This document shows, one piece after another, positions 16,063-42,810 of a stretch of 49,254 nt of DNA. Location of the stretch: contig NZ_NCJT01000013.1 in assembly GCF_002282565.1 (NCBI RefSeq), positions 1 through 49,254 of the forward strand, read 5' to 3'. The stretch comes from Hyphomonas sp. 34-62-18. GTDB lineage: Bacteria > Pseudomonadota > Alphaproteobacteria > Caulobacterales > Hyphomonadaceae. Positions within the stretch are counted from its first letter, which is position 1. Every line of letters begins with the position of its first letter. The translations under genes were made by a program, and so were the position numbers. Below the pieces are notes generated by a model. It saw only the letters and a list, made by a program, of their open reading frames with translations, had not been told where the DNA came from and made no database searches.

Positions 16063-16629
16063 TCAATCGGGGCGGATGGGCGTGGGCGGTGGTGGCCATG
16101 CCTCAATATCCGCCTTGATTTGCTTCAGCTTGGCCAGCCGCCCTTCCAGCGCGGTGACGGTGGGGTCAAGCCATTCTACGGCCGGCGGAAGCTCTTTCAT
16201 GCGGCCGGGAATATTCTGGCGGCTCGGCTGAGCGAGTAGCGTCGCAATGTCCGCTTCGACCTGAGCGGCTTGCTGCTGAAGCGCAACAATGCTCTGGAAG
16301 CCTCCAAACGAATTGATCTGCTCCCGGAGTGTCGTGATCGTTGCGGACTGATCTGCCAGCTGCTGATCCTTCTCTGCGATACGCTTGGTCAGCGCCGATA
16401 CTTCGGCTTGAGCTGTTTGAATGGCTTGTGACGCATTTTGCTGCATCAGGAAAAATCCTGCGCCACCGGCAAATATCACACCTGCCAGAAAGACCAGCGC
16501 GATCTGAAGCCGCGCCCGGCCAGCTCTGGCCTGTGAGGCCTGATCGGAAAGCGCCTGCATCTCCTCGCGTGTGGGCACGGTTTCAAAGACTATTTCGCCC
16601 TTGTTGTCGGATACCATTGGCGGCTGCAT
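16063..16629 (-). CDS. Single-pass membrane protein with periplasmic coiled coil
   Basis: Unrecognised family, 188 residues. A charged cytosolic N-terminus of about 40 residues is followed by one membrane helix (IALVFLAGVIFAGGAGFFL) and then a long heptad-rich helix (QAEVSALTKRIAEKDQQLAD and onward) with few prolines until a proline-rich tail (WPPPPTPIRPD). ATG 16629 has AGGAG ten bases upstream. It lies between a TPR lipoprotein and a TerB-like gene, with short gaps of 59 and 13-28 bases, so the three likely form an envelope-associated unit. No function can be assigned. Confidence 0.7.
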   Translation of the reverse strand: MQPPMVSDNKGEIVFETVPTREEMQALSDQASQARAGRARLQIALVFLAGVIFAGGAGFFLMQQNASQAIQTAQAEVSALTKRIAEKDQQLADQSATITTLREQINSFGGFQSIVALQQQAAQVEADIATLLAQPSRQNIPGRMKELPPAVEWLDPTVTALEGRLAKLKQIKADIEAWPPPPTPIRPD

Positions 16630-16688
16630 GGTTTATGGCTCCTCGTGTGATGTGATGCGGACGATGCGGATAGCTGTTTGGGCATTCT

Positions 16689-18719: not shown

Positions 18720-18824
18720 GTCAGGTCCCCACCCTTTCTCATTCCTGCATTCAGACCCTGAATTTGACCGGACTGTGTTCCCATCCGTAGAGCTACGTAG
18801 ACGGATGAAAACTCAGTGCCAGGT

Positions 18825-27755: not shown

Positions 27756-28441
27756 TTGGAAGCGCTCACTTTCTCGGAAAGGAAGCCGATGTCCGGCAGG
27801 TTCAGATCGGCGATGGTAAGGTTCAGTCTTTGCGCCGCCTTCCGCAATCCGGAGGATGGGTTCACCGCAACGCCGAGGTCGGAATTGAGAAGCATATCAA
27901 GATCAGAGACGTGATCGCTGTAAGCAAAGGTGGCGCGCTCAATTCCGTGCGCCTCAATGCGTCGCAGTTTTTCTGCGCCATAGCAATTTGCGCCTGCAAG
28001 CCTGGGGGCAGGCACATCACTTTGCGCTGACCAGTCCAGCCGCGTTGCGATCACTTCATGAAATCCAAGGGCGCGTGCCAATTCATCCGCAACAAGATCA
28101 ACCGACGCCGTCGCGATAATCAGCCGGTGCCCCTTCGCGGCGTGCCAGCGAATTGCCTCGACCGCGCCGGGGCGCAGCCCGGATCTCACTTCCCGCTCAA
28201 TGAATGCTGCTGCCGCCGTTTCAAGTTCGGCTTTGGAAAGGTGGGCGAGCGATCGCAGGCTGACCACTTTCACCGAGTCCCGGCTGGCGAGGCCCAGCTT
28301 GTATCCTGCCCCCTGCACAAGAATGCGGGCGAGGTGCAGCAGGAAGGCCGGCCGTTTCCGGTTCACGAAGATCAGGAAGCGGGTCCAGGTCGGCGCCCGG
28401 GTAATCGTTTTATCAAGGTCGAAGATGGCAATTGCGGTCAT
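27752..28441 (-). CDS. HAD-IB family phosphatase
   Basis: Haloacid-dehalogenase phosphatase of 229 residues related to phosphoserine phosphatase and PgpC. The catalytic DxDxT is D8-L-D10-K-T12 (FDLDKTIT), motif II is in LIIATASVD, the Lys in GAEKLRRI, and the acid motif in YSDHVSDLDML. ATG 28441 is preceded by GGAGGG and lies five bases after the CDP-alcohol phosphatidyltransferase stop. PgpC-type enzymes remove the terminal phosphate from phosphatidylglycerophosphate after a CDP-alcohol transferase has acted, and the gene order here fits an equivalent step for another lipid; that is inference. Confidence 0.85.
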   Translation of the reverse strand: MTAIAIFDLDKTITRAPTWTRFLIFVNRKRPAFLLHLARILVQGAGYKLGLASRDSVKVVSLRSLAHLSKAELETAAAAFIEREVRSGLRPGAVEAIRWHAAKGHRLIIATASVDLVADELARALGFHEVIATRLDWSAQSDVPAPRLAGANCYGAEKLRRIEAHGIERATFAYSDHVSDLDMLLNSDLGVAVNPSSGLRKAAQRLNLTIADLNLPDIGFLSEKVSASK

Positions 28442-28446
28442 GGGGA

Positions 28447-29583
28447 TCAGCCCTCCAACCACGAAACGGGGCGCGATTTCCCTGCCATCGCCTGCACCAG
28501 CCTTCCGCCATGGAAGATCAGGCAGATGAGCGTCCATGCGGCGACCGCCACAAAACCCCAGCCTGGCTGGCCGACTAGCACCGCCCCCATGAAGATCAGC
28601 ATATTGGGGTTCCTGCGCGCAGTGATTTCCCGCATGAAGCTGTCGATGGGCTGCCAGACATGGATGTGGAACCCGAAGCGCCGGATGAACTCGCCTTCTT
28701 CCAGCCGGTTCAGCACATAGCCGGCAAGGATCATCGCCAGCGACCCGGCGAGCAAGGTTTGCGAGGGACCATCATCCGCGCCCTGCAGGCCAACAAACAT
28801 GGCCCAATACCAGAAGGGCGGATGGATCAGGTCGATCCCGTGATCGTAGATGTTGCCCCAGTTTGAATAGGTCATCGTGGTGCGCGCGAGTTTGCCATCC
28901 ACCGTGTCCAGGAACGTCATGACCCAGGCCGCCGCAAGCCCGGCAACCCACGCCCCGTTCCAGAACAGCCAGAACGCGATGACGACGAATGCGAGGCTCG
29001 CTGTCGTGACGGTGTTGGGCGAAATGCGCAGAAAGGCACAGAGCCGGGTGATGTGAAATGCCGGGAAGGGCCATGCATATTTGGTCACAAGGTCTGTCAC
29101 GCCCTTGTAGGAGCCCTTGAACAATATGCGCTCAATGTCGATCGTCTTCTCGTCGCGCATCGACAGCGCGTAAGGCACTTCCCGTTTGCGCAGGCTCTTG
29201 TTGTAGGCGTCGGCAAAGTCATGCATGTCGCCGGGCGTCAGGCCCGCAGCCTTCAGTTCCTCGCGATTGACAGTCGGGCGATCAAACAAGGCCAGGAGCG
29301 TGCGCTCATCCGTCCCGGCGGGCAGATGAATGGCGACCAGCCGCTCGCCTTGTCCATTCGCCGCTGGCGTCAGCAGCGCGGAGCCGGGCTGGGCCAGCAG
29401 GTTACGCTGCAGAGAAGGGGACAACACCCATTCGAGACCAGCCAGCAGCCGTCCGTTCGTTTGATCCACATCAGCGGCCCCCGCCTTCATCCAGGCGCGG
29501 CGCTGCCACTCGTGAAGATCAAGCCCCCAGAGCTTTGAGGGCAATTCCCCTAGCAGGCGAACCGAGACGGCGTTTGGTGTCAT
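28447..29583 (-). CDS. CDP-alcohol phosphatidyltransferase with degenerate N-terminal domain
   Basis: Integral-membrane transferase of 378 residues. The full CDP-OH-P signature is present: D226-x2-D229-G230-x2-A-R234-x8-G243-x3-D247-x3-D251. Several hydrophobic helices follow residue ~190. The first ~150 residues (VRLLGELPSKLWGLDLHEWQ) look like a nucleotidyltransferase-type domain without its GxGxR active loop, as in inositol-phosphate cytidylyltransferase/transferase fusions, so it may be a dead domain. ATG 29583 chosen; the frame is open to 29700. The enzyme would displace CMP from a CDP-activated lipid or alcohol. It heads a leftward operon with a HAD phosphatase, nucleotidyltransferase and glycerophosphotransferase-like gene. 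Confidence 0.88.
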   Translation of the reverse strand: MTPNAVSVRLLGELPSKLWGLDLHEWQRRAWMKAGAADVDQTNGRLLAGLEWVLSPSLQRNLLAQPGSALLTPAANGQGERLVAIHLPAGTDERTLLALFDRPTVNREELKAAGLTPGDMHDFADAYNKSLRKREVPYALSMRDEKTIDIERILFKGSYKGVTDLVTKYAWPFPAFHITRLCAFLRISPNTVTTASLAFVVIAFWLFWNGAWVAGLAAAWVMTFLDTVDGKLARTTMTYSNWGNIYDHGIDLIHPPFWYWAMFVGLQGADDGPSQTLLAGSLAMILAGYVLNRLEEGEFIRRFGFHIHVWQPIDSFMREITARRNPNMLIFMGAVLVGQPGWGFVAVAAWTLICLIFHGGRLVQAMAGKSRPVSWLEG

Positions 29584-29656
29584 AAGGCGAATAACTCTAG
29601 AGTGTTCAGCGGAAAGTGGGCTCTTGGATGAGACCGGCAGAAGGAGAAAGAGCGTC

Positions 29657-30097
29657 ATGCATCGCAATGCAACCTTTGAAACATTTGGTGGCAGCCGCAC
29701 CCTGATCCGCGACTACGCTCATTGGAGTGTCCAGGTACGGCCCAAGCAGGTCACACTCGGCGCGCTCATAATTCTCTCGCACAGCGAAGCAACCGCGTTT
29801 TCCGCCCTGCCGGCCGAGGCATTTGCCGAACTCGCGACCGTTGTCAAAGACGCCGAAGCAGTTTGCGCCCAAACCTTTGCGAACGCGAAAATCAACTATC
29901 TCATGCTTATGATGGTGGATCCCCATGTCCATTTCCATGTTCTGCCGCGTTATGCCGCCCCGGTGATGTTTGAAGGAACCGCCTACACCGATCCGGGCTG
30001 GCCCGGACAGCCTGTCCTCACAGTGTCGGAGGGGCTGGCCGATCCTGGCGCCGTTGCCAATCGGCTGCGGGCAGTTTGGCCCAAATCCATCGCATGA
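29657..30097 (+). CDS. HIT-family nucleotide-binding protein
   Basis: Histidine-triad hydrolase/transferase of 146 residues with the triad HVHFHVLPRY and the upstream ALIILSHSEA strand and NYLMLMMVDPH. Such proteins hydrolyse nucleotidyl adducts or dinucleoside polyphosphates. ATG 29657 has AGGAG about 11 bases upstream; a TTG at 29624 is less likely. It is divergent from the CDP-alcohol phosphatidyltransferase and convergent with the nucleotidyltransferase on the right, from which it is 22 bases away. HIT proteins could clean up unused CDP-intermediates, but this is speculation. Confidence 0.88.
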   Translation: MHRNATFETFGGSRTLIRDYAHWSVQVRPKQVTLGALIILSHSEATAFSALPAEAFAELATVVKDAEAVCAQTFANAKINYLMLMMVDPHVHFHVLPRYAAPVMFEGTAYTDPGWPGQPVLTVSEGLADPGAVANRLRAVWPKSIA

Positions 30098-30119: not shown

Positions 30120-30917
30120 TCAGCTTTGCGGTCTGCCAGCAATGATGCTCCGAACGAGCTCAAGATCCGCTTGAGAATCGACATCTATGGCCGCCTCCGC
30201 AAAGGGCATGACGACGACTCCCGCCCGCGCGCCCAGCCGTGCAGAGATCAGCTCGAAAGCCCGGTGAACATCTGGCCTGCCAATCAGCAGCCGCAGCGCG
30301 GTTACCAGGCCGAACCGCCAGGCAATCTTCCATGGCTGCTTCCGGTCCTGTTCCGCCTCTCTCCAGAACCGGATGATCCTCAGGGCTTCCGGAGAGTTGA
30401 CGAAAAACAGATTGCAGCCCGACATCGGAGACCCGCCGAACGGGATGTAGGTGCGCCTCGTTTCCGGATACTGCGCCTGGATCGTTTCCCTGGACGCCAG
30501 CCCTACGGTCAGATCGGCGCCGCCGCGGATTGCTTCCCCAACGAAGTGATCCACCATCTCCGCCGTCAGCAGCGCATGATCGCAGGTGGTGACCAGAAGC
30601 GGTAACTGCACGCCGCCTTCAATCGCGCCTAATAGGCTGGAGGCTGGGCCGCCAGAGACGGAAACAGCTGCTTTGGCGGCAATTCCGGCGCTGGCATTTT
30701 CGAGAATTTGTTGTTCAAGCCCCGATACGTAGGGGGCATCACGAAGGCGGCCACTGCCCGTCAGGGCGCGGAGCACTCTGGAAAGCATCGGTGCTCCACC
30801 GATCTCGATCAGTGCTTTGCTTGCAACGCCATGGGATGCGGCAAGCGCATCCCCGCTCGCGCGCGCGCCTGCCAGAACAAGCGCATTCACCGTGTCGCGC
30901 GCGGTGGTATGGCTCAA
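30120..30917 (-). CDS. MobA-like NTP transferase, candidate CDP-glycerate synthase
   Basis: Nucleotidyltransferase-fold protein of 265 residues with an altered loop (ALVLAGARASGDALAA, SKALIEIGGAPMLSRVLRAL) and acidic metal-site segment LLVTTCDHALL. Start is TTG 30917, overlapping the ceramide synthase stop by 4 bases (TTGA), or GTG 30890. Tight coupling to the ceramide synthase suggests it acts on a sphingolipid precursor. In Caulobacter a nucleotidyltransferase near the ceramide synthase gene (CpgD) makes CDP-glycerate; I regard this as a likely but unproven counterpart, the other candidate being 27036-27755. Confidence 0.72.
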   Translation of the reverse strand: MSHTTARDTVNALVLAGARASGDALAASHGVASKALIEIGGAPMLSRVLRALTGSGRLRDAPYVSGLEQQILENASAGIAAKAAVSVSGGPASSLLGAIEGGVQLPLLVTTCDHALLTAEMVDHFVGEAIRGGADLTVGLASRETIQAQYPETRRTYIPFGGSPMSGCNLFFVNSPEALRIIRFWREAEQDRKQPWKIAWRFGLVTALRLLIGRPDVHRAFELISARLGARAGVVVMPFAEAAIDVDSQADLELVRSIIAGRPQS

Positions 30918-32098
30918 AGGGGTTTTCCGTAGATGCGGTAGGTCTTGTATTTCGGCGCGTCGAACAGCGAAATGATGTTGATCAGATTACTGTTCGTTTC
31001 GAGGATCCACGAAGCTTCGATGTTGCGCACGCCCCTGGCATGCTGCGCCGCCAATGTCATGCTGCAGGTGGCGGCCATCGTCTGAACACCGCGGCGCGTC
31101 TTGTGGAATTTCCGCCGCATGCCGGCCAGAGGAATCCGCGCCGTGGTCGTGCCTGCAATCTTCAGCCGGTGCAGGAACTGAATCCAGCCGAAGGGCAAAA
31201 GGCGCCCGTTGAGGCCATCGGCCGCTTCAAAAATGTCCGGCAGAACCAGCGCGAAACAGGCAGGCTCGTCATCAATCAGCCCGATCCACAGATTGTCTGG
31301 TGTGATGAGCGGTTTCAGTTCCTTGGCCATATGCGTGATTTCGGCCTTGCCGAAAGGCACAAAACCCCAATTGCCGGACCAGGCATCATCAAAGATGTCG
31401 AGGATCTGGTTGATCTCGTTTTCATAATTGCGGCTGTCCAGATTGCGGATCTTCAACCGCGGGTCCCGCTCAAACCCTTCAATCAGCCTACGTGCAATTG
31501 GTGGAGGTTCAAACGTCTCGCCCATGCGGATCATGTAGGCAAACATGTCCATCGCCTTGGAATAGCCGATACGTTCCAGGGCAGGGGCGTAGTCAGGCCG
31601 TCCATGCAGCATCATCATGACGGGCGGCGTATCAAAGCCGTCAACCAGCAGGCCACATTCTTCGTTCACGGAAAAGTTGAACGGGCCTGCAATCCGCAGC
31701 ATGCCTTTCTGGCGTAGCCACGCCTCCGCCGCCTGCATGAGGGCAGCAACGGTCTCCTCATCTTCCTGAAGCGTGTCCAGAAAACCGAAATGCCCGGTCT
31801 GATCATTGTGCCGCGCCAGATGCGCAGGATTTACGAACACGGCAATCCTGCCAACAGGTTCGCCGCCGCGCCAGGCCAGCAGCAATTCATGCGGCATCTG
31901 GGCGAGCGCGGGGTTCTTGCGCGGATCAATCTGTGCGGCGCGTTCAAACCTGAGAGGCGCGCGCCAGGCGGGCAGGTTGCCATAGGCGCGGTAGGGCAGA
32001 TCAAGAAAAGCCTTGCGGTCTGCCGCAGTCGCCACCGGCCGGACAGTCACAGACTCGCCGGCCATCGGCAGGCTCTGGATCGGCGCATGGACGTTCAT
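30914..32098 (-). CDS. bcerS: GNAT-like bacterial ceramide synthase
   Basis: 394-residue protein resembling the YghO/GNAT-type acyltransferases. Key segments are PFNFSVNEECGLLVDGFDTPP, MMMLHGRPDY, LWIGLIDDEPACFALVLPD and the C-terminal ASWILETNSNLINIISLFD followed by YRIYGKPL, a known hallmark of this family. In Caulobacter this protein adds the N-acyl chain to 3-oxosphinganine to give 3-oxoceramide. The pathway core (Spt, ACP, CerR, acyl-ACP synthetase) is in the same region, which supports the assignment. Its ATG overlaps the DUF2141 gene stop by 4 bases and a nucleotidyltransferase follows with another overlap. No signal or membrane helix is evident. Confidence 0.85.
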   Translation of the reverse strand: MNVHAPIQSLPMAGESVTVRPVATAADRKAFLDLPYRAYGNLPAWRAPLRFERAAQIDPRKNPALAQMPHELLLAWRGGEPVGRIAVFVNPAHLARHNDQTGHFGFLDTLQEDEETVAALMQAAEAWLRQKGMLRIAGPFNFSVNEECGLLVDGFDTPPVMMMLHGRPDYAPALERIGYSKAMDMFAYMIRMGETFEPPPIARRLIEGFERDPRLKIRNLDSRNYENEINQILDIFDDAWSGNWGFVPFGKAEITHMAKELKPLITPDNLWIGLIDDEPACFALVLPDIFEAADGLNGRLLPFGWIQFLHRLKIAGTTTARIPLAGMRRKFHKTRRGVQTMAATCSMTLAAQHARGVRNIEASWILETNSNLINIISLFDAPKYKTYRIYGKPL

Positions 32099-32580
32099 TT
32101 GCGCAGCTCAAGCCGGATCGTCGTCATGTCTTCGCCGGCCTTGAACGCGGCTTCCTCGAACTTCGGCATGCGTAGTTTGAGCTTGCGATTGTTCGAGAGG
32201 GCAAACGGCTCTGCCGGCAGCATGTTCCACTGACGGTCGAGTTCCCGGTCTCCGTCCACGTCGTGATATGCGGCTACGGCGTAAGCGCCCGGGCCCGGCA
32301 AATCGAAACAGACCCTCTGCGTACCCCCTTCAGCAGGTACGCGTACCCGTTTAAGGCGAGAAGCCTTCTTCAGGAAGTCGCGTTCACTCGGGCTATAAAG
32401 CTCAACTGTCAGGATGCCCGTCGCAGTCGCGCCAGCAACCAGCACCTCTATCTGCGGCGACCTTTCACCACAAATCGCTCCAGCCTCGTCAGCACGAATA
32501 TTCAGGACATTGAGAGATTGGGCCGTTGCCGACTGGCAAAACATCGCCATCATCAGCATCAGAACCTTGCCAAGGTGCAT
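32095..32580 (-). CDS. Secreted DUF2141-domain protein
   Basis: 161-residue secreted beta-sandwich protein. Signal peptide MHLGKVLMLMMAMFCQSATA with cleavage after ATA. The family signature is visible as CFDLPGPGAYAVAAYHDVDGD (split as CFDLPGPGAYAVA and AYHDVDGDRELDRQWNM) and PAEPFALSNNRKLKL. Role unknown in the family. It is the first gene of the leftward ceramide-synthase operon and is divergent from the LptF-like permease across ~130 bases, so a periplasmic part in sphingolipid handling is possible. ATG 32580 is used instead of 32604 because it gives the cleaner signal peptide. Confidence 0.8.
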   Translation of the reverse strand: MHLGKVLMLMMAMFCQSATAQSLNVLNIRADEAGAICGERSPQIEVLVAGATATGILTVELYSPSERDFLKKASRLKRVRVPAEGGTQRVCFDLPGPGAYAVAAYHDVDGDRELDRQWNMLPAEPFALSNNRKLKLRMPKFEEAAFKAGEDMTTIRLELRK

Positions 32581-32710
32581 CAACACAGTCCTATTGTGAC
32601 ACATACGCTTCAGTTTGTTAGTAGCGCTAAGCCGGTGCAGGGATCAATGGACTGTCACACGGGATGCTATAACAATGTCAGTAGAATGCGGTCGGTCGAG
32701 GGAATGAGTA

Positions 32711-33889
32711 ATGATTGCCAGGCTTGATCGCTACCTGATCCGTAGCTTTCTTGGCATGTTTGCTGGCCTCACCGCGCTGGCGATGGCCCTTTTGCTGCTG
32801 GAAAGGCTGATCCGCATCACGGAGCTCGTTTCAGGCTCGGGAAACGCCCTGCTGTCCGGCTCTCTGCTCGTCGCGAACCTGATTCCACACTATCTGAATC
32901 TGGCTCTGCCCGGCGCCTTTCTGATCTCGATGATCCTGACGATAGACCGGCTCAGCCGCTCGGGCGAAATCGTCGCCCTCATGGCCGCCGGCGTCTCGCT
33001 TTACCGGATCGTCCGGCCCTTTCTGGCTGTTGCGATCGTTCTGGCGGCGGCATCGCTTTTGATTTCGGGCTTCCTCCAGCCGCTCTCCCGGTACTCTTAC
33101 CGCGAAATCGTCTATAACCTTCAGCATCAGTCCGTGCTGTCCGTTTTCCAGGAACAGAAGTTTGTCCAGTACAATGACCGGATCATCTGGACCGACAGCG
33201 TACAGCCTTCCAGCCGCCGCCTGGGGCAAACCTTTATTCTGGAAACCGAACCGGATGGAACGCGCACCCTGCTGACCGGCCGCACAGGTTTGCTGCAGGA
33301 GCCGCGCGCCGGAGAGTGGGAAATCATCCTTCAGGAGGGGACAGGCGCCTCCTATCGCGAAAGCGAACCGCTGGACGAGTATGATCAGATCGCATTCGGC
33401 GAACTGATCTGGCCCGTGATCCCGGATGCTGGCCAGTATCGCGAACGCGGCAATGATGAGCGCGAGCTGTTCCTCTCCGAGCTGCTCAGCTCGTCGTCTA
33501 CGGATGGTGAAAGCGGCGTTGCGCCAGCAGTCGCTGCTTCCGCTTTCCATGACCGCACCAGCCGCGCTGCCTTGCTGCTGGTGATGCCGCTCATCGCCGT
33601 CATCCTTGGCCTCAACCTTGGCCGGATCGCCCGGTCCAGCGGGGTGATCGTTGGCATCCTGATCCTTCTGGGCGTTCAGAAGGTTCTGGAGTTTACGCTG
33701 GTCCAGGCCAGCGGCGGCGTGATCCCGCCCTGGACAGGCTTCTGGCCCATTGTGGCGCTGGTTGCGGTCGCGGCGTTCGTGCTCTTCCAGCGGCTCTCGG
33801 AGGGCAGCCTTCTGACCAGCCGCCGTCAGATCGCCGCCTATAAGGGCACCGATTATGCCAGCGCGCTTGCCGGAAGGCAGGCGTCATGA
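32711..33889 (+). CDS. LptF/YjgP-like permease, sphingolipid-cluster paralog
   Basis: 392-residue inner-membrane permease of the LptF/LptG family. An N-terminal helical pair (YLIRSFLGMFAGLTALAMALLLL) is followed by DRLSRSGEIVALMAAGVSLYRI, a typical coupling-helix region, then a beta-rich periplasmic domain (~residues 140-290) and C-terminal helices. LptF and LptG with LptB2 extract lipopolysaccharide from the inner membrane. Here the gene is embedded in the sphingolipid locus and coupled to an LptG-like gene and a lipid kinase, so a dedicated lipid cargo is plausible. Start ATG 32711 follows GAGGG by 8 bases. Whether this is the only LptF of the genome cannot be seen here. Confidence 0.88.
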   Translation: MIARLDRYLIRSFLGMFAGLTALAMALLLLERLIRITELVSGSGNALLSGSLLVANLIPHYLNLALPGAFLISMILTIDRLSRSGEIVALMAAGVSLYRIVRPFLAVAIVLAAASLLISGFLQPLSRYSYREIVYNLQHQSVLSVFQEQKFVQYNDRIIWTDSVQPSSRRLGQTFILETEPDGTRTLLTGRTGLLQEPRAGEWEIILQEGTGASYRESEPLDEYDQIAFGELIWPVIPDAGQYRERGNDERELFLSELLSSSSTDGESGVAPAVAASAFHDRTSRAALLLVMPLIAVILGLNLGRIARSSGVIVGILILLGVQKVLEFTLVQASGGVIPPWTGFWPIVALVAVAAFVLFQRLSEGSLLTSRRQIAAYKGTDYASALAGRQAS

Positions 33890-34941
33890 CGGCACGCCTG
33901 ACCCGCTATCTGTCCCTGCTTTTTCTGCAGCGTCTGCTGGTGGTCACGCTTGCGCTGGTCGCGCTGCTGGGTGTCCTCGACGCGCTCAGTAATGCTGACA
34001 AACTTCCCTCCGGCGCCGGGTTTGAAGGCCAGATGCGGTATATGTGGCTGCGCCTGCCGGCTCTCTTCGACCGGATCGTGGTCTTTGCCTTCCTGCTCGC
34101 CGCGCTCCTCACCTATGCATCCCTGTTCAGGCGCAATGAACTGGTATCTATCTCTGCTTCCGGCATCTCCGTGTTCGGACAGATGAGAACACTGGCGCCT
34201 GTCGTCTTTGTGGCCGGTGTTGCCTCTGCGCTGGTGATTGATGCCGCCGGCCCTCCCGCCAGCCGGGCGCTGCAGGCCTGGCTCGGTCCCGATGCGCTGC
34301 AGGAAGATGTCCAGGCGCCTGAAAAACTCTGGCTTTCCGATGGGCGGCTGCTGATCGAACTCAGCAGCATGCAGAATGATGAGTTGACCGGCATCACGAT
34401 TTTCGAACGCAATGACGAGGGCGCCGTCGTTTCGGTCACCATGGCTGAAACAGCCCGCCCAGCGGAAGGCGGCTGGCAGTTGTCGAATACCATTCAGCGG
34501 CGGTTCGATGGGGAAGCGCCACGCGAGATGACCTTCTGGCCAAGTCCGCAGACCCCGGAAAGCCTGCAACTGTTGCTGGCGCCGCCGCGCGACCTTGCGG
34601 TTCAGCATCTATTGTCGCTGAGTGAGATGCGCGGCTCCGGCAGCCGCCCCTCCGGCGCCTATCTCCTGTGGGCGCTGAACCGGATATTGCTGCCGGTTAC
34701 CGTGATCGGCTTCCTTTTTCTCGCGATACCGATCATGCAGGTCTATGGCAGGCGCTCCAACGCCGATCTCGCCGTGGCCGCCGGTGTGGCCGCCGGATTC
34801 CTCTACATGGTGGTCGACGGTATCCTGAAAACGCTTGCGGAAAACGGCAGTCTCAACCCCGTATTCGCCGTTGCGTTTCCAATCCTCGCCCTCTTTGGCG
34901 TCAGCATGTGGCTGGCTCTGGACCGTGAGGTCAGAAAATGA
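33886..34941 (+). CDS. LptG/YjgQ-like permease, partner of upstream LptF-like gene
   Basis: 351-residue permease with the LptG pattern: N-terminal helices (LLFLQRLLVVTLALVALLG), RNELVSISASGISVFGQMRT, a periplasmic domain rich in beta strand, and three C-terminal helices (LLPVTVIGFLFLAIPIMQVYG first). It overlaps the LptF-like gene by 4 bases and its stop overlaps the start of the lipid kinase gene, so all are translationally coupled. LptF and LptG form a heterodimer; this pair probably does too, with an unidentified ATPase partner not present in the window. Confidence 0.88.
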   Translation: MTARLTRYLSLLFLQRLLVVTLALVALLGVLDALSNADKLPSGAGFEGQMRYMWLRLPALFDRIVVFAFLLAALLTYASLFRRNELVSISASGISVFGQMRTLAPVVFVAGVASALVIDAAGPPASRALQAWLGPDALQEDVQAPEKLWLSDGRLLIELSSMQNDELTGITIFERNDEGAVVSVTMAETARPAEGGWQLSNTIQRRFDGEAPREMTFWPSPQTPESLQLLLAPPRDLAVQHLLSLSEMRGSGSRPSGAYLLWALNRILLPVTVIGFLFLAIPIMQVYGRRSNADLAVAAGVAAGFLYMVVDGILKTLAENGSLNPVFAVAFPILALFGVSMWLALDREVRK

Positions 34942-35900
34942 GCCGCCGGATCGGCTTGATCGTCAATCCGCTTAGTCACACGGTCCGGCGCAAGGGCTCA
35001 ATCCTCGAGCAGGCAGCTGGGCGGATTGAGGATGCTTCGCTGGTCCGCATTGATGATTTCGCGCGCCTTCCGGGCCAACTCCGGGAACTCGCAGCAGAAG
35101 ACCCCGCTGCCCTCTTCATCGAAGGGGGAGATGGCACGCTTCAGGCCGTTCTTTCAGCCTGGCCTGGTTTCGCACAAGGTGGCGGCCCGCTGCCAGACAT
35201 TGCCGTTCTGCCGGGCGGCAGCACCAATCTTGCCTTCAAGGTTGCCGGCCTGAAACGCCGCAGCGCAGAAGACATTGCAACCTTCGTCCAGTCCTATCGC
35301 GCCGATGGCGTGACCGCCCGGACAAGCCTGCCCGCCCTCCGGATAGAAAGCGACAGCCTTCCGGCACCTTTGGCCGGCATGCTGCTGTCGACGGGGTCGC
35401 TCGCCCGCGTCATGGTCTATACTCAGAAACAGATACATGGCGATGGTCACAGAGGGTCGCTGGCCGTGGCAGAAGCGGCTGCCCGCTTTGTGCTCTCACC
35501 GCAAGCCTATCTCGATACGGATGGCGCGCCGCTGCTGCGGCCAGACGATTTCAAGGCGGAGAGCGCCGCATTCCGCCTGCAGGGCGCTCATGCGCTCAGC
35601 CTGATGACGACCTTGCCTTACCTCAGCCTCGGGCTGAAGCCCTTCTGGGGAGAGGCGAGCGGGCCGATCGCCGTCACTTATGCCCAGTGGCCCATATCAG
35701 GCTTCAGGGCTGCATTCCTGAAAATCCTAGCGAATGCCACCGGCCCGGAAATGACCCGCCACGGCCTCACAAGCTATCGGACGGGCACCCTTACGTTCAG
35801 CTGTTCCGGGCCAGTTGTGCTGGATGGGGAGGTGTTGCAAATCCCTGCAGATGCCCGCATCAGGGTCAGCTCAACCCGCCCCATCCGGTTCCTGCGATGA
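34938..35900 (+). CDS. cpgB: Diacylglycerol/ceramide kinase family protein (CpgB-like)
   Basis: 320-residue lipid kinase with the GGDGT nucleotide motif at residues 63-67 (ALFIEGGDGTLQ), the preceding LIVNPLSH and a C-terminal VLDGEVL, as in the DAGK/LcbK/YegS group. In Caulobacter the homologous ceramide kinase CpgB makes ceramide-1-phosphate for anionic sphingolipids. Location directly downstream of an LptFG-like pair and upstream of the Spt cluster supports a ceramide substrate, but the sequence alone does not separate ceramide, sphingoid and diacylglycerol kinases. Start and stop overlap both neighbours by four bases. Confidence 0.8.
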   Translation: MSRRIGLIVNPLSHTVRRKGSILEQAAGRIEDASLVRIDDFARLPGQLRELAAEDPAALFIEGGDGTLQAVLSAWPGFAQGGGPLPDIAVLPGGSTNLAFKVAGLKRRSAEDIATFVQSYRADGVTARTSLPALRIESDSLPAPLAGMLLSTGSLARVMVYTQKQIHGDGHRGSLAVAEAAARFVLSPQAYLDTDGAPLLRPDDFKAESAAFRLQGAHALSLMTTLPYLSLGLKPFWGEASGPIAVTYAQWPISGFRAAFLKILANATGPEMTRHGLTSYRTGTLTFSCSGPVVLDGEVLQIPADARIRVSSTRPIRFLR

Positions 35901-36826
35901 CCAAGTCTGAAGCCCATTTGCCAGCCTTGCGCGCGCTCATTCTCGACGATCAGGTAGATCTCGGGGAGGGGGCCCGTGAAGTTGCGACGGCCATATGCGA
36001 GCGCCACGCGGGCGCCGTTCGCGGACTTGTCTTCTACGGGTCGGCCATGCGCCAGGGCGAGGTGGCGGACAAGATGTATGATTTCTATGTCATCGTTGAT
36101 CAGTATAAATCAGTCTACGGATCAGGATTGAAACGCTTCGGATCATGGCTGCTGCCGCCCGGTGTCCATTACATGCAGATCACAGGCGCCAATGGAAAGC
36201 GCCTGCGGAGCAAATACTCCATCGTATCAGAAAAGGCGTTTCATCGCCGCGCGCGGGGCGGGGCGTTTGAAAGCATGCTCTGGGCACGTTTCGCGCAGCC
36301 CTCGGTCGTGCTGTCGGACGACGCCGATGTGCGCGCAGAATTGCTGGATACTCTGGCGCTCGCCTGCGCGCATTTTGCAGACGAGATCCGCCCCTTGCTG
36401 TCAGGGCCGGTCACGCCATCGTCGCCCTGGGTTCGGGGCTTGAGTGAAAGTTATCGCACAGAGCTGCGTCCCGAACGGCCCGATGCCCGCGCCGCCGAAA
36501 TCGTTGCGCGTTTCGAGCCGCGTTATCGCAGACTGTCCGAAATCCTGTTCGCTACAGAACTGGAAACGCCGCCGAAACCCGGCCGAGTGCGTGCGTTTCT
36601 GTGCCAGATGAAATGGATCCTGCGGCGCATTGTGGGAAAACCCATGGGCGCGCTGCGCGTCATGAAAGCGGCCGCCACATTCGATGCCGGCCTCGACTAT
36701 ATCCTGGAAAAAGTCGAAAGCCATTCCGGCGTGCGCCTTCAGGTCACGGACGAAGAACGCCGCCGTCCGCTGTTCCATGCGCCCTCGCTCGCCTGGCGGC
36801 TATACCGCGCAGGCGCTTTCCGGTGA
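35897..36826 (+). CDS. Tam41-like cytidylyltransferase, candidate CDP-ceramide synthase
   Basis: 309 residues from ATG 35897, overlapping the kinase stop. The N-terminal half shows Tam41/MMP37 features: YGSAMRQ (residues 47-53, the nucleotidyltransferase GS loop) and an acidic pair in MYDFYVIVDQ, then GVHYMQITGANGKRLRSKY, aligning with the GVYYNSL-DGRLIKY part of human TAMM41 as I recall it, and a following RFAQPSVVLSD block like its RLQKPVKIISV. Tam41 converts phosphatidate plus CTP to CDP-diacylglycerol. Because a lipid kinase immediately precedes it, the predicted reaction is ceramide-1-phosphate plus CTP to CDP-ceramide. That is inference; phosphatidate is the alternative substrate. Its gene is convergent with Spt. 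Confidence 0.68.
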   Translation: MTKSEAHLPALRALILDDQVDLGEGAREVATAICERHAGAVRGLVFYGSAMRQGEVADKMYDFYVIVDQYKSVYGSGLKRFGSWLLPPGVHYMQITGANGKRLRSKYSIVSEKAFHRRARGGAFESMLWARFAQPSVVLSDDADVRAELLDTLALACAHFADEIRPLLSGPVTPSSPWVRGLSESYRTELRPERPDARAAEIVARFEPRYRRLSEILFATELETPPKPGRVRAFLCQMKWILRRIVGKPMGALRVMKAAATFDAGLDYILEKVESHSGVRLQVTDEERRRPLFHAPSLAWRLYRAGAFR

Positions 36827-36842: not shown

Positions 36843-37952
36843 TTAAGTCAGCTCACGGAAGGCAGAGATGATCGTGTTGATCTCGTCTTCAGAATGCGCT
36901 GCCGATACGCTGAGGCGAAGCAGGGACTTCGCATGCGGCGTTGCGGGCGGAACGGCAAGGTTCACATAAATCCCTGCTTCCAGCAGGCGGTTCCATTCCC
37001 TGACAGCGGTCAGTTCGTCCGGCCGGGGGATCGCGATGATCGGTCCCGGCGGAGAGGCGGGCGTGAACCCGGCGCCCGTCAGCCCGGCATGCAGCTGGTG
37101 TGCACGTTCCATCAGTTCACGGCTGAGGTCGGGGCCGTTCATCATCTCGCCCATTGCGGCGCGCGCGGCGGCGACATTCGAGGGCGAGCCCGACGCCGTA
37201 AAGAGGTAAGGCCGGCTTACCAGGCGCATCAGGTCGAGGCCCGGATGGCGCGAGACACAAAATCCGCCAATCGAGGCAAAGCTCTTGGAGAATGTGCCGG
37301 AGAGAAAGTCGATCTTGTCCAGCACGCCCAGCTCTTCGGCCAGTCCGCGCCCGCGGTCGCCATAGCAACCAACCGAGTGGGCTTCGTCCACATAAAGATA
37401 GGCGCCATGCTCATGTGCGACGGCAACGAACTCGTCGAGCGGCGCGACATCGCCCAGCATCGAGTAAAGCCCCTCAACCACAACGAGGCGGGCGCCTTCG
37501 TCGGGCAGGCGGGCAAGCCGTTTGGCAAGGTCCTCGGGGCTGTTATGCCGGAAACGGATCGTTTCCGCCTCGCTCAGCCGGCATCCATCATAGATGCAGG
37601 CATGGCTGTCGGCATCGATCAGCAGATGGTCACCGCGCCCGGCGAGCGTGCTGATGGCGGCGAGGTTGGCCTGATACCCAGTGGTGAAGACAACCGCTGA
37701 TTTTGCGCGGAAGAAGGTTTTCAGGTCTTCTTCAAGGTCGATGTGCTCCCGGAAGGTGCCATTGGCGAGGCGGCTGCCGGTTGTCGCAGTGCCTTGCCGC
37801 GCGATGGCATCGATGGCGGCAGATTTCACCGCTTCTGAAAATGTGAGCCCCAGATAGTTGTTTGTGCCGGCGAGGATGATTTCCCGTCCGTCCACCAGCG
37901 CGCGGGTGGGGGAAAGGATTTCGCTCGAAAATGTCGGCCTTCTTGAGGTCAC
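36843..37952 (-). CDS. spt: Serine palmitoyltransferase
   Basis: PLP enzyme of the alpha-oxoamine synthase family condensing serine with an acyl thioester to 3-oxosphinganine. PLP Lys223 (GTFSKSF), Asp189 and His192 (DEAHSVG), and His117 (DADSHACIYDG) are present, and SPT-like segments EILSPTRALVDG, LAGTNNYLGLTF and VVEGLYSMLGDVAPL match the Sphingomonas and Caulobacter enzymes rather than BioF. GTG start at 37952 shares one base with the ACP stop (TAGTG). The N-terminus is ~40 residues shorter than the Sphingomonas enzyme. An ATG at 37962 with AGGA ten bases upstream is in another frame and would join by a one-base indel at the AAAA tract 37928-37931. Confidence 0.9.
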   Translation of the reverse strand: MTSRRPTFSSEILSPTRALVDGREIILAGTNNYLGLTFSEAVKSAAIDAIARQGTATTGSRLANGTFREHIDLEEDLKTFFRAKSAVVFTTGYQANLAAISTLAGRGDHLLIDADSHACIYDGCRLSEAETIRFRHNSPEDLAKRLARLPDEGARLVVVEGLYSMLGDVAPLDEFVAVAHEHGAYLYVDEAHSVGCYGDRGRGLAEELGVLDKIDFLSGTFSKSFASIGGFCVSRHPGLDLMRLVSRPYLFTASGSPSNVAAARAAMGEMMNGPDLSRELMERAHQLHAGLTGAGFTPASPPGPIIAIPRPDELTAVREWNRLLEAGIYVNLAVPPATPHAKSLLRLSVSAAHSEDEINTIISAFRELT

Positions 37953-38209
37953 TATCGAACATTTGCGAGCTGTCCTATCTTTGAAACGAGGTCTTGAACG
38001 GTGTCGATATCGGAAGCTGCTTCGACCGGCAGAGATATATTGTAGAGGTCCTCAAGTTCCATCACGATATCGAAGATTTCGACGGAATCGATCTCGAGGT
38101 CGGCGCCGATGCGTGTCTCGGGGCGAATGGGGGCCTGGGTATGGCTGTGCGTGGAAAGCACTCTGGCAACGTCTTCAAAGATCGCCTTTTGATCAGTTCC
38201 TGAGGCCAT
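37952..38209 (-). CDS. acpR: Acyl carrier protein for sphingolipid synthesis
   Basis: Small acidic carrier protein of 85 residues. Phosphopantetheine attachment Ser is in the EIDSVEIFD motif (residue 42 from ATG 38209; GTG 38215 is an alternative start overlapping the reductase stop). It would carry the fatty acyl chain used by Spt. It is separate from the fatty-acid synthase ACP because it is encoded between the reductase and Spt genes, with only two bases or an overlap to the former. Caulobacter has an equivalent dedicated ACP. Confidence 0.9.
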   Translation of the reverse strand: MASGTDQKAIFEDVARVLSTHSHTQAPIRPETRIGADLEIDSVEIFDIVMELEDLYNISLPVEAASDIDTVQDLVSKIGQLANVR

Positions 38210-38211: not shown

Positions 38212-39168
38212 TCACGCTCGTCTCTTACCATACTCGTTCGTGTTCCTAGCAGACCGCTGAAAGGGGGCAATACACCGCTTCAGCGTCTCATCCAGCGGGA
38301 TGGCGTCCTGAATCTGAGTATCTGCGAGCCAGTCGCCGGAGAGAAGTTCCTTCACCTTGCCGCCAGAGAACACCTGCGGAGGTCCGTTTAGCTTCGCAGC
38401 AAGGTCCGCTGCGTGACCAGCCACTTTCATCAGTAAAGGGGGCATGACAATGCGGCGCACCGGACGCTGCAACACGCGCTCCGCGCTCTGGGCGACATCT
38501 TGCCAGCTGAGGTTGAGGTGCCCCGCGGGGGCAATTGAACGTACGCCGCTGGCAGGCGCCGCCGCATAGCCGAGCAGGCATCGGGACGCGTCCATCACAT
38601 CGATCATGGAAAAGCGGTAGTCCGCCGCCGCGCCGCCTGGGCTTGGCAGAATACCTCTCGCGAGGGCTGAAAACAGCGCCCGTGTCGCATCATCCTCCGG
38701 CCCCAGAACAGCGGGTGCCCGCACGATGGTCAGCGCCATCGATCCCGCATTGCGGATGGCCAGGTTTTCGCTGCTGGCCTTGGAGCTGGCATAGGCCGAA
38801 ACCTCCGGGCGCAGCGCTGTCAGCGATGATACATGCACAAAATGCGAGACGCCCGCCGCCTGCGCGCGGCTGACAAGGTCGCCCGTGCGCGCAGCATTGA
38901 TCTCGTGAAACGTGGCCGCGTCCTTCGCCTTGGTCGCGCCGGCCAGATGGATCACCACGCCGGCACCTCGAACAAGTGCGCAGAGCGCATCGTCTGAAGC
39001 GAGATCGCCTGAAATCCACTCCACGCCATCAAGGGATGGCAAGGTTCGTCCGGGTGCGGCCCTGGCGAGCGCGCGGACGGGCCAGCCACCTCGCGCAAGG
39101 TCTGCCACCAGTATCTTGCCGACAAAGCCGGTCGCGCCGGTCAGTGCGATGAGCGGCCGGTCCGTCAT
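38212..39168 (-). CDS. cerR: 3-oxoceramide/3-oxosphinganine reductase, NAD-epimerase fold
   Basis: 318-residue extended-SDR protein with glycine-rich GATGFVG (residues 11-17), catalytic Ser114/115 (VSSL), Tyr126 and Lys130 (SAYASSK). The Caulobacter homolog CerR, an NAD-dependent-epimerase-like protein next to the spt and acp genes, is needed to reduce the keto group of the ceramide backbone. The same order here (synthetase, reductase, ACP, Spt) supports the name. It follows the synthetase gene by 18 bases. Confidence 0.87.
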   Translation of the reverse strand: MTDRPLIALTGATGFVGKILVADLARGGWPVRALARAAPGRTLPSLDGVEWISGDLASDDALCALVRGAGVVIHLAGATKAKDAATFHEINAARTGDLVSRAQAAGVSHFVHVSSLTALRPEVSAYASSKASSENLAIRNAGSMALTIVRAPAVLGPEDDATRALFSALARGILPSPGGAAADYRFSMIDVMDASRCLLGYAAAPASGVRSIAPAGHLNLSWQDVAQSAERVLQRPVRRIVMPPLLMKVAGHAADLAAKLNGPPQVFSGGKVKELLSGDWLADTQIQDAIPLDETLKRCIAPFQRSARNTNEYGKRRA

Positions 39169-39186: not shown

Positions 39187-40926
39187 TCAGGGTAAGGCAG
39201 CGGCCCGGCTGGAGGCCTCCGCCTTGTCCTGGTTGATTAGCCCGGACACATAGGCATTGCGCGAAGCCGTGCGGCTGAGCTTGCCCGAGCTCGTCACCGG
39301 AAGCGTCTTGATGCTGACGAGTTCAACGCTGACCGGAGCGCCGGCCACAGAGCGCGCTGCTGCGGCAATATCGCCCGTCAGCGTCTCGCGCACATCCGCT
39401 TCCTGAGACCGGCATTCAACCAGCAGGATGATCCGGGATGCGTCTGCCGTCTCGCGCAATTCAAACGCTGCCGAGCGTGCAACCAGCCGTCCACCGACCT
39501 TCTGTGCCACCCATTCAATGTCCTGCGGCCAGATATTGCGGCCATTGGACAGGATCATGTCCTTGGAGCGTCCGGTGACGACGATTTCGTCGTCCAGCCA
39601 ATAGCCCAGATCACCCGTGTCCAGCCAACCATCTTCATCCGTGAGCGGTTGAAGATCGCGGTCGACCCGGAAATAGCCAGCTGCCAGCGAGGCGCTGCGA
39701 ATGAGGATGCGGCCAACCTGCCGGAAGCCGAGCTCGTCTCCATCGCTGCCAACGATCTTGAGTTCCGTAGACGGAAGGGGGCGGCCGCAGCTGACGAAAG
39801 AACGTTCCGCGCCTTCACGCGTCAGGTCTGATGCGGGCACAGCGCGCCCGGAAGCCTGCATGCGAGTAACATCTACGCGGTCGGTGTTCAGCCCTGTGTC
39901 CAGCGGTGCAAAACTCACCGCCAGCGTGGATTCTGCGAGGCCATAGCTGGCCACGAAGGACGAGCGGCGAAAGCCTGCGCCTGCAAATGTCTCGCTGAAC
40001 TGGTCCAGCGCATCGGCACGCACCATGTCACCGCCAATGCCCGCCGCGCGCCAGCTCGAAAGGTCGAGCGCTTCGCCGCGATGGCGCCTCACGCACAGCT
40101 CATATCCAAAGCTCGGGCTGTAGGAGAGCGTCCCCTTGTTGGCGCTGATCAGCTTCAGCCATGTGCCCGGCCGGCGCGCAAAATCCGTCGGCGAGAGAAA
40201 ATCGATCGAAAGCTGGGAGTAGAGCGGCGCGATGAAGAAGCCCACCAGCCCCATGTCATGGTACAGCGGCAGCCAGGAAACAGCCCGGTCGCCCGTGCGC
40301 ACCTGCAGGCCTTCCTGAATGATCGCCCGGCAGTTTGCCGAGAGGCTTGCCTGAGTGGCGACGATCCCCTTGGGTTCGCTCGTGCTGCCCGAGGAAAACT
40401 GGATGTAAGACAATTCATCCGGGCCATGAGGGACAGGCTCAGCCGTCTCTGCCGGCAGATTGCCGCCGCCAAGATCAAACAGATCGATTTCCTGGCTGGC
40501 TGTGGCTGAGCTTAAAATCTCATGCAGGGCAGGGGGCGCAAACACCGCGGAGAGCCCCGCGCTGCGGACCATGTTGCTGACCTGCCATTCATAGGTCTGG
40601 CGTCCGCCAAAGGCGGCCGGCAGGCTCAGCGGGGCGGGGACCATGCCGGCATACTGGCATGCCATGAAGGTGATGACAAAATCAGGCGAGGTCTCGGCTA
40701 GCACGCCGATGCGTGCGCCCCTGGCAAACCGCGCCGTCATCCGGCCAGCCATCTCCAGCGCTTTTTCCCGCAGCTCACGATAGGAGAGGTTCCGGGTCAG
40801 CAGACCTTCGGAATTATAGAAGTTTACGCCACTTTGGCCGGTCGCTGCGTAGTCTAATGCGTCGCAAGTCGACCGAAAGGTGCCGAGACGCGCGGGAATC
40901 CCCGCCTCTGTCGCCGTTGGTTCCAA
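39187..40926 (-). CDS. Fatty acyl-AMP ligase/acyl-ACP synthetase for sphingolipids
   Basis: ANL-superfamily adenylating enzyme. ATP/AMP motif YIQFSSGSTSEPKG, SWLPLYHDMGLVG, GYGLAES-type FVASYGLAEST and DTGDLGYWLDDEIVVTGRSKD are those of fatty acyl-AMP ligases that load carrier proteins instead of CoA, and a late KTLPVTSSGKLSR supplies the catalytic Lys. It would charge the ACP encoded downstream. I take TTG 40926 with AGGGG nine bases upstream; another TTG at 40980 is possible. It heads the leftward set acps-cerR-acp-spt. Product names for this gene vary, so I give no symbol. Confidence 0.85.
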   Translation of the reverse strand: MEPTATEAGIPARLGTFRSTCDALDYAATGQSGVNFYNSEGLLTRNLSYRELREKALEMAGRMTARFARGARIGVLAETSPDFVITFMACQYAGMVPAPLSLPAAFGGRQTYEWQVSNMVRSAGLSAVFAPPALHEILSSATASQEIDLFDLGGGNLPAETAEPVPHGPDELSYIQFSSGSTSEPKGIVATQASLSANCRAIIQEGLQVRTGDRAVSWLPLYHDMGLVGFFIAPLYSQLSIDFLSPTDFARRPGTWLKLISANKGTLSYSPSFGYELCVRRHRGEALDLSSWRAAGIGGDMVRADALDQFSETFAGAGFRRSSFVASYGLAESTLAVSFAPLDTGLNTDRVDVTRMQASGRAVPASDLTREGAERSFVSCGRPLPSTELKIVGSDGDELGFRQVGRILIRSASLAAGYFRVDRDLQPLTDEDGWLDTGDLGYWLDDEIVVTGRSKDMILSNGRNIWPQDIEWVAQKVGGRLVARSAAFELRETADASRIILLVECRSQEADVRETLTGDIAAAARSVAGAPVSVELVSIKTLPVTSSGKLSRTASRNAYVSGLINQDKAEASSRAAALP

Positions 40927-41166
40927 GTTGAAAGACCCCTGACCGTCTACTTCGCGGACCGCCGTTCCCTGAACTGGCAACTGGCCGCCTGTATGAATTC
41001 ACGCGTCCGACATTTATCGTCAAGATCAGTAGGGGTCTTTTGTGGGAAACCTGCTGCTTCTTTTGTCAAACCTTACGACAGCCTGACGAAGACTTGTATT
41101 TGCACTCCGAAAACACGTAACTTCACACCACAAAGCGGAATCAACATCTTTACGCCTGCTGTAGCG

Positions 41167-42471
41167 TCAGGCAGCGCCCTGTTTCCGGAAAGCGGCGTAG
41201 AGCAGGGTGAGCATCAGCAGGGACGCCCCTGCCGTCGCCACAGCAGCGCCGAGGCTGCCATAGAGCAGCACCGCGCCCGCCAGCGCCCCGGCATAAACCA
41301 GAGACACCATGCCCCGCACCCAGAGCACCGTTCCCGGCCGGCCCAGCGCCACCATTGCCGGCTCAATGGCCACGCCGCTGAGATCAAACACCGCCGCCAC
41401 CGACAGGATCAGCAGCACCGGAAACACGAAAAGGTAATCCTCCCCGCCGATCAGCCGCAAAACGCTCTGCCCGGCAAGCACCACCACAACCAGCACCAGC
41501 GCCCCGGCCAGTGCGCCAATCAGGCAAGCCCGCAGGACGGTTTTGTTGATGGCGGCCCGGTCAACGACCGCGAGCTTTGCAAACTCCGGATAGATCGCGC
41601 GGGCCAGCGCTATCGTTGGCTTATTAAGCGCCCCGACCAGCTGCGTGGCAATCCGGAAGCCGCCTGCGGCCACCGCGTCCACCGCCCAACCTACAGCCAG
41701 CACCGGGAACTGCTTCCAGATCAGGTTCAGCGATGTGTTGAGGTTGGTTGTCCAGGCAAACACCCACAGCCCTTCATTCTCAGCGGTCACCCCGCGCACG
41801 CGAGCGCCTTCTACTGGCTCTTTGAATCGTTTCCGGATTTCCCGGATGCTCGCCCCCCACATGGCGACCGTCGTCACGAGTTCTGCGACCGCCCAGGCGG
41901 CCAGGTATCCGGCGATCGATGCCCCGCTTGCCCAGGCGACCAGCGCGCCCGCCATCCGCATTGCCGGCAACACTGTCTCTGCATAGGCCGCCACATCAAA
42001 CCGGTCGAACAGGCGCAGCACCCCGGTCGGCGCGCCGCGCACTCCGAACAGAAGCGACAGGCAGAATAGCGCTGCCAGGTCCTGCTCGGCCCGTGACCAG
42101 CCAAACTGCCCGCCGATCAGATACACGCCCGCAACAGAAAGTGCTGTGCCCGCAAGCGCCGCGCCGAGGTCCAGCAGCGTGGCAAACACGATGATCCGCC
42201 TGAGCTTTTCCGGCGCCGCATCTGCCTCATGCTGCGCGCCATAACGCACCACCGTCTGCCAGGATTGGAACTGCGCCAGATTGGTCACGGCCTGGCCGTA
42301 AGACAGGATCAGCGCGAACACGCCGAACTGCTCGGCGCCGAGGCTCCGCGCGGTGAGGGCCAGATAGAACAGGCTGAAAAAGCCACCGGCGCCCTTGCCA
42401 GCCAGCAGCCAGCCCGCATTCCGGAGCGCCCTTTTGATCGGTCCTTCAGACTTTGTTCCCGTGGCGGCCAC
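41167..42471 (-). CDS. Polysaccharide/lipid flippase-like membrane protein
   Basis: 434-residue integral-membrane protein with about twelve hydrophobic segments, in the MOP (Wzx/MATE-like oligosaccharide flippase) superfamily: N-terminal LLAGKGAGGFFSLFYLALTARSLG and later FALILSYGQAVTNLAQF. GTG 42471 has AAGGA six bases upstream; the longer frame to 42777 would run across the tRNA gene antisense, so it is rejected. It is 186 bases upstream of the acyl-ACP synthetase on the same strand, and its position beside the ceramide cluster may mean lipid-linked substrate transport, unproven. The region 40981-41166 between them holds no gene and probably the promoter of the spt operon. Confidence 0.75.
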   Translation of the reverse strand: MAATGTKSEGPIKRALRNAGWLLAGKGAGGFFSLFYLALTARSLGAEQFGVFALILSYGQAVTNLAQFQSWQTVVRYGAQHEADAAPEKLRRIIVFATLLDLGAALAGTALSVAGVYLIGGQFGWSRAEQDLAALFCLSLLFGVRGAPTGVLRLFDRFDVAAYAETVLPAMRMAGALVAWASGASIAGYLAAWAVAELVTTVAMWGASIREIRKRFKEPVEGARVRGVTAENEGLWVFAWTTNLNTSLNLIWKQFPVLAVGWAVDAVAAGGFRIATQLVGALNKPTIALARAIYPEFAKLAVVDRAAINKTVLRACLIGALAGALVLVVVVLAGQSVLRLIGGEDYLFVFPVLLILSVAAVFDLSGVAIEPAMVALGRPGTVLWVRGMVSLVYAGALAGAVLLYGSLGAAVATAGASLLMLTLLYAAFRKQGAA

Positions 42472-42647
42472 CCGAATTCCTTCTTTGCCAGACCGAGATC
42501 GTTTTATGCGCCAGAACGGATTTCGATAGCCATAGACGGAAAAAACCGGCTGCAACCGGAGTCTTCGGTTTTTTACCCTGTGAATCGATGGATTTGCCGG
42601 TTGACGAGACGGTATCCCACGGATAAATCCCCGCCTCTCTACCCCGT

Positions 42648-42732
42648 GCCCAGATGGCGGAATTGGTAGACGCACTGCTTTCAGGTAGCAGCGCTGCAAG
42701 GCGTGGAGGTTCGAGTCCTCTTCTGGGCACCA
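42648..42732 (+). tRNA. tRNA-Leu(CAG)
   Basis: 85-base class II tRNA with acceptor GCCCAGA/TCTGGGC, discriminator A, encoded CCA (42730-42732), D-arm, anticodon stem CTGCT/AGCAG with loop TTCAGGT (anticodon CAG), long variable arm and T-arm GGTTCGAGTCC. A tyrosine-recombinase gene starts 187 bases downstream, so its 3' end is the likely attachment site of the genomic island. Confidence 0.95.
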
Positions 42733-42810
42733 GGCACCTAATCGTGTGCATTTTTCGACATCCCCTGACGTCCACAAAATACATAAAAAACAAGATTCTA
42801 AGGCCGAACT

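Follow-up and report, generated by a model that had tools for sequence, protein, structure and literature searches.

A probable Tam41-like CpgC orthologue in a Hyphomonas sphingolipid gene cluster, a candidate CDP-ceramide synthase

The gene at 35897-36826 on the forward strand of a 49,254-nucleotide stretch of Hyphomonas sp. 34-62-18 DNA (the whole stretch analysed, hereafter the window) is, in our reading, a newly recognised orthologue of an already described gene, and it represents a sphingolipid-bound variant of the Tam41-type CDP-lipid synthases. The known gene is likely, judging from sequence and position, cpgC of Caulobacter (CCNA_01219 = CC_1161), and we lean towards the view that CpgC converts ceramide-1-phosphate and CTP to CDP-ceramide. 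Computational support comes from orthology, fold, conserved residues, gene context and co-occurrence with serine palmitoyltransferase (Spt). The scheme that we infer places CpgC as a peripheral membrane nucleotidyltransferase of Tam41 fold in the Caulobacter-type phosphosphingolipid pathway: the coupled kinase CpgB would make ceramide-1-phosphate, CpgC would bind the membrane and move CMP from its donor CTP to this acceptor, giving CDP-ceramide and pyrophosphate, and the next enzyme, presumably a CDP-alcohol phosphotransferase, would then put glycerate or phosphoglycerate on the activated ceramide to yield ceramide phosphoglycerate (CPG). Formation of a phosphodiester from ceramide-1-phosphate and an alcohol would not be expected without such activation.

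An activated ceramide has been considered before. For CC_1161, Olea-Ozuna et al. (2024; PMC11324152) suggested that its product might be a ceramide activated with an NDP, and the idea put forward by an earlier sequence-only reading of this DNA is therefore independent but not the first. That reading had known of no description of a bacterial CDP-ceramide, which stands for the term itself, as neither a description nor an assay of CDP-ceramide was found in a literature search that reached few subscription papers, but not for the broader notion of an NDP-activated ceramide. The mechanism of CpgC is called unidentified in a 2025 paper (PMC12275187) and in a May 2026 preprint (PMC13228409).

The window carries a near-complete gene cluster for ceramide-diphosphoglycerate (CPG2), and its closest named loci belong to Hyphomonas polymorpha, with proteins 90% identical, and to a Hyphomonas MAG, with 88%. 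Its features, with the evidence for each, are as follows.

27036-27755, minus strand: CpgD counterpart, CTP:phosphoglycerate cytidylyltransferase type (locus comparison, Pfam)
27752-28441, minus strand: HAD phosphatase between CpgA and CpgD (PF12710; ORF listed as 27752-28537, start at 28441 chosen by us)
28447-29700, minus strand: CpgA counterpart, CDP-alcohol phosphotransferase with DG-AR-G-D-D motif (PF01066)
29624-30097, plus strand: HIT-family protein; corresponds to the gene found at the CC_1157 position (Pfam scan, comparison)
30120-30917, minus strand: MobA/CofC-like nucleotidyltransferase, CC_1153 counterpart (Pfam scan, comparison)
30914-32098, minus strand: bacterial ceramide synthase (bCerS) counterpart (Caulobacter comparison)
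32095-32604, minus strand: DUF2141 protein (PF09912)
32711-33889, plus strand: LptF2-like permease (Pfam scan, locus comparison)
33886-34941, plus strand: LptG2-like permease (Pfam scan, locus comparison)
34938-35900, plus strand: CpgB orthologue, ceramide kinase type, likely (Pfam DAGK_cat, Caulobacter comparison)
35897-36826, plus strand: CpgC orthologue, putative Tam41-like nucleotidyltransferase (homology, fold model, profile)
36843-37952, minus strand: serine palmitoyltransferase Spt (NCBIfam NF047599 above cut-off)
37952-38209, minus strand: acyl carrier protein between Spt and CerR (PF00550)
38212-39168, minus strand: CerR-like epimerase/reductase (Pfam scan, locus comparison)
39187-40980, minus strand: fatty acyl-AMP ligase (NCBIfam NF006624 above cut-off)
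41167-42777, minus strand: flippase-like protein (PF01943; true start probably further in than in the listed ORF)

The candidate cpgC frame is open from an ATG start, encodes 309 amino acids and overlaps the kinase gene by 4 nt (ATGA). Its product contains the motifs YGSAMRQ (47-53), KMYDFYVIVD (59-68) and GVHYMQI...GKRLRSKY (89-107), which the sequence-only reading had picked out. In the Pfam scan the sole match of the candidate was RBD_SIN1, below its cut-off (E 0.054), and the NCBIfam scan of the same frame gave no model above cut-off. The upstream gene matched DAGK_cat (35 bits; cut-off 23.6), in agreement with its earlier description as a ceramide/diacylglycerol-type kinase, and by its position and 31% identity it is likely an orthologue of CpgB, the Caulobacter protein demonstrated to be a ceramide kinase (PMC10331486). 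The translational coupling of the two genes, also noted at the outset, recurs beyond this genome: a 4-nt overlap was found in 42 of the 69 loci holding both genes, a count biased towards overlap, since the CpgC start codon closest to the end of the kinase gene was used. In 69/72 loci the gene immediately before CpgC, on the same strand, encodes a CpgB-type kinase; the locus stretches of the other three (L127 and L128, from one genus, and L129) showed none, which counts against the proposed scheme. In L127 and L128, CpgC stands beside bCerS and Spt, and a ceramide kinase is not adjacent.

The Caulobacter cluster was located in genome G161 through published cpgD primers (PMC12275187). Four of the eight (EK1698, EK1701, EK1708 and EK1709) matched G161 exactly and the others (EK1699, EK1700, S355 and S356) had no exact match there; G161 is therefore a close relative of the published Caulobacter strain and not that strain. 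Its gene order equals the published order from CC_1168 to CC_1152, so far as the legend in PMC11324152 names the products, and the gene between its ceramide kinase and Spt is the counterpart of CC_1161 = CCNA_01219, i.e. CpgC. The candidate is homologous to this protein over most of its length (33% identity across an alignment of 271 residues; Z 52 relative to 60 shuffles), and its gene immediately follows that of the ceramide kinase within a cluster of CPG2 type. In Caulobacter, mutation of CC_1161 abolishes both CPG and CPG2 (PMC11324152), so that the gene is required in vivo for what follows the kinase reaction, and CPG2 helps Caulobacter to survive without LPS (PMC12275187).

CpgC genes were found in 51/200 genomes of the order and 34/289 genomes of the class (the window's genome counted), and in one genome outside the class, G930, where the gene lies beside a CpgB-like kinase. 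The 72 loci compared, one per genome, comprise all 51 CpgC-positive genomes of the order, 20 of 33 further CpgC-positive genomes of the class and G930, and some of these stretches end at contig ends. L001-L008 do not enter the 72-locus counts, since several of them duplicate contigs of the G genomes, and L009 (Ruminococcus), which the initial locus scan had returned apparently by chance, was excluded from all counts. Alignments were built from selections without near-duplicates (A1, 39 of 58 collected sequences; A2, 46 of 87; A3, 36 of 87). The 46-sequence alignment, which includes the window protein, has 15 invariant columns, among them Y47, G48, D62, P88, K106, W129, R131, Q134, E189, R191 and E193 (46/46 each); the Tyr two positions after D62 is present in 44/46, and S49 is replaced by Ala in 2/46. 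With this degree of invariance, the motifs of the candidate are not due to chance.

Structure prediction offers the clearest link to Tam41. For the window protein, the predicted structure (pLDDT 92, pTM 0.89) had Tam41 chains as its top five PDB matches (best E 9.2e-7, TM 0.51/0.57), followed by aminoglycoside nucleotidyltransferases from E 1.2e-4. The G161 CpgC model (pLDDT 94) had these five chains at the head of its list as well (best E 3.9e-7), again followed by aminoglycoside nucleotidyltransferases, from E 3.5e-5. Across the two models, the Tam41 alignments gave TM-scores of 0.43-0.57, rmsd values of 5.4-9.1 A and identities of 11-17%; the TM-scores and rmsd values, and the aminoglycoside enzymes next in rank, weigh against the link. 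The predicted fold of the candidate is Tam41-like, and the comparison with Tam41 structures that the sequence-only reading had suggested came out in its favour for both proteins.

The resemblance to Tam41 that the same reading had drawn from the letters fares less evenly: it holds by fold in both models, but the sequence link is weak, and the window protein had no match to PF09139 in Pfam at E 1. Tam41 was absent from the PDB matches when the sequence query was the window protein, homologue L095 or the 39-sequence profile. The 46-sequence CpgC profile placed Tam41 6ig2 first among PDB matches (E 0.0058). In place of the suggested profile-profile comparison, hhalign against fragments of one solved Tam41 sequence scored 30.8 against 13.9 +/- 2.5 (maximum 23.9) for 100 shuffles; its E was 9e-4, but it assigned a probability of just 22.6%. 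Among the homologues, L104 was the sole one seen above the PF09139 cut-off of 24 (28.8 bits) and L095 (= L112) fell just under it (23.1); matches to PF09139 numbered 2/46 in the second alignment and 0/39 in the first. L104 is the CpgC of L127, one of the loci without an adjacent ceramide kinase. In genome searches PF09139 matched only G382 (among 289 class genomes) and G930 (among 299 phylum genomes), both times a CpgC homologue, although the class search missed G381, which holds L104 and was in the set. The window's own genome gave no PF09139 match, nor did Ruminococcus and 299 genomes of its phylum, and no control genome matched either. Weak as it is, the sequence signal is concordant with the fold, and we place the window protein among the distant relatives of Tam41, outside the family as the Pfam cut-off delimits it.

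Which lipid such an enzyme would activate is addressed by its genomic company. Within the order, an Spt match (E 1e-90 or better) occurred in 51/51 genomes with CpgC versus 15/149 without it (Fisher P 2e-34 for the 200 genomes, uncorrected for shared descent). A protein of PF01148, the CdsA family, was present in 30/30 CpgC genomes tested, which had been picked for spread; the candidate itself has no PF01148 match in the Pfam scan, and the match of its own genome lies on another contig. Taken together, the co-occurrence with Spt, the retention of CdsA and the adjacency and overlap with the kinase gene point to ceramide-1-phosphate as the substrate of CpgC. They also bear on the reading in which CpgC, as a bacterial Tam41, would use phosphatidate and so increase the CDP-diacylglycerol available to the sphingolipid branch. 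The fold would suit such an activity, and a Firmicutes Tam41 is reported to make CDP-diacylglycerol (Kimura 2022, cited in PMC11646218). However, a CdsA-family protein was already at hand in every CpgC genome tested, CpgC was confined to Spt-bearing genomes in the order and a ceramide kinase neighbours it at nearly all loci, and it is CPG that the CC_1161 mutant loses (PMC11324152). We consider this reading very improbable, and a Tam41 specific for phosphatidate was rejected as the main interpretation on account of the Spt co-occurrence and the CdsA-family proteins.

The remaining alternatives concern the chemistry. CpgC might activate ceramide-1-phosphate with ATP, GTP or UTP and so form another NDP-ceramide under the same pathway logic; the published proposal leaves the nucleotide open (PMC11324152), and the similarity of fold extends to aminoglycoside nucleotidyltransferases, for some of which there are structures containing ATP or an analogue. 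The best fold and sequence matches are nevertheless to Tam41, which uses CTP, and CpgD, an unrelated cytidylyltransferase of the pathway, is strict for CTP (PMC13228409), so that we regard a different nucleotide as unlikely. A CpgC that itself joins glycerate to ceramide-1-phosphate without free CDP-ceramide, or that uses a preformed donor in the manner of a nucleotidyltransferase, would account for the published schemes that draw ceramide-1-phosphate to CPG as a CpgC step of unidentified mechanism (PMC12275187, PMC13228409) and for the fact that no second enzyme is known. Direct transfer is described as energetically "not very favourable" (PMC11324152), however, and the known donor CDP-glycerate is dispensable, since a cpgD deletion retains CPG (PMC12275187); we give such transfer only a small chance. 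Least probable to us is that CpgC has no catalytic activity and serves the ceramide kinase as a lipid-binding partner, for which the single acidic residue at the DFY motif and the kinase adjacency could speak: the invariance of D62, K106, R131, Q134, E189, R191 and E193 is what an active site would show, and Tam41, which is active, is likewise reported to retain a single one of its fold's three acidic residues (PMC11646218). CTP-dependent formation of CDP-ceramide remains the reading that we favour.

The step after CDP-ceramide formation was traced through the distribution of neighbouring genes. A separate CpgA is absent from 35/72 loci. In three of these (L072 at 16202-18739, L076 and L078, from G153, G029 and G098), CpgA is fused to the flippase in one frame of 842-847 residues, an arrangement that might tie lipid flipping to the addition of the second phosphoglycerate. 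From the remaining 32 loci, 27 genomes were searched whole, as part of a set of 30 that also held G153, G161 and G930. With a single-sequence query, which recovered copies of 41-54% identity and may miss very divergent ones, 23 of the 27 had no CpgA match at E 0.001, one had a weak match (2.8e-4) and three had CpgA elsewhere. CpgA is also not needed for CPG in Caulobacter (PMC11324152), and its role as the obvious consumer of CDP-ceramide is unsupported on both counts, which weighs against the CDP-ceramide reading. Because many genomes gave no CpgA match, CpgB and CpgC seem to form a module independent of it, with which the Caulobacter genetics agrees. A second CDP-alcohol phosphotransferase beside CpgC does not serve as a general answer either, as it occurs in only 2/72 loci (L129 and L130); these CpgA-like proteins (207 and 219 bits) are candidates for the step after CpgC.

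Phosphatase genes show a complementary pattern across the 72 loci: a CC_1158-type metallophosphoesterase in 33, an HAD phosphatase in 21, both in none and neither in 18. That the two never occur together suggests that they stand in for each other, and the split largely follows lineages, which may reflect history rather than function. Phosphatidylglycerophosphate is converted to phosphatidylglycerol by dephosphorylation, and by analogy the pattern would fit a step of this kind. Further genes recur in these neighbourhoods: the DUF2141 (PF09912) gene is found in 32/72 sphingolipid loci, and a gene that we take to resemble fatty-acid/sterol hydroxylases, possibly a ceramide hydroxylase, in 17/72 (L051, L081, L082, L084, L129-L131, L133, L134, L136-L138, L140-L143 and L145).

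A broader proposal can be put forward, which we hold tentatively and with some doubt. Bacteria may make CDP-ceramide, with a Tam41-like synthase acting between a ceramide kinase and a CDP-alcohol phosphotransferase and followed by a phosphatase of HAD or metallo type; these enzymes would form a sphingolipid counterpart of the pathway by which mitochondria turn phosphatidate into phosphatidylglycerol, across Alphaproteobacteria and in at least one genome outside; where CpgA is missing, CDP-ceramide could be the branch point to headgroups other than diphosphoglycerate. Irrespective of this wider scheme, the evidence narrows down the step from ceramide-1-phosphate to CPG, in which an enzyme of Tam41 fold would carry out an activation of CTP type, offers D62, K106, R131 and R191 for mutation and supplies many homologues for expression. 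CDP-ceramide, if the assignment is true, would be an activated lipid that we did not find named in the literature searched.

Compared with known systems, the closest relative is the Caulobacter cluster as seen through G161, in which CpgC likewise lies between the ceramide kinase and Spt with flanking genes common to both, and its modelled protein shares its leading PDB chains with the window protein. The window differs in having LptF2-LptG2 ahead of the kinase, in grouping CpgA, the HAD phosphatase and CpgD together further off and in adding a DUF2141 gene, whereas LptC2 and a CC_1158-type metallophosphoesterase were not found within it. CdsA (PF01148) makes CDP-diacylglycerol, the glycerolipid analogue of the proposed CpgC product, and is an integral membrane family unrelated to CpgC (PMC7018664). 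Tam41/TAMM41, a CTP:phosphatidate cytidylyltransferase (PF09139; 6ig2, 6ig4, 7ecd), has the fold predicted for the CpgC models; its motifs YGS, DF, KY, RF..P and Y...R align with CpgC, which likewise has a single acidic residue, D62, at the putative active site. Tam41 has a membrane-binding C-terminal part; in CpgC, a conserved basic helix (230-261; net charge +8, positive in 46/46; hydrophobic moment 0.31, not exceptional) could bind membranes. Unlike Tam41, which is described as mainly eukaryotic (PMC11646218), CpgC is tied to a ceramide kinase and Spt, and setting Tam41 beside an alphaproteobacterial sphingolipid enzyme may bear on the origin of Tam41 itself.
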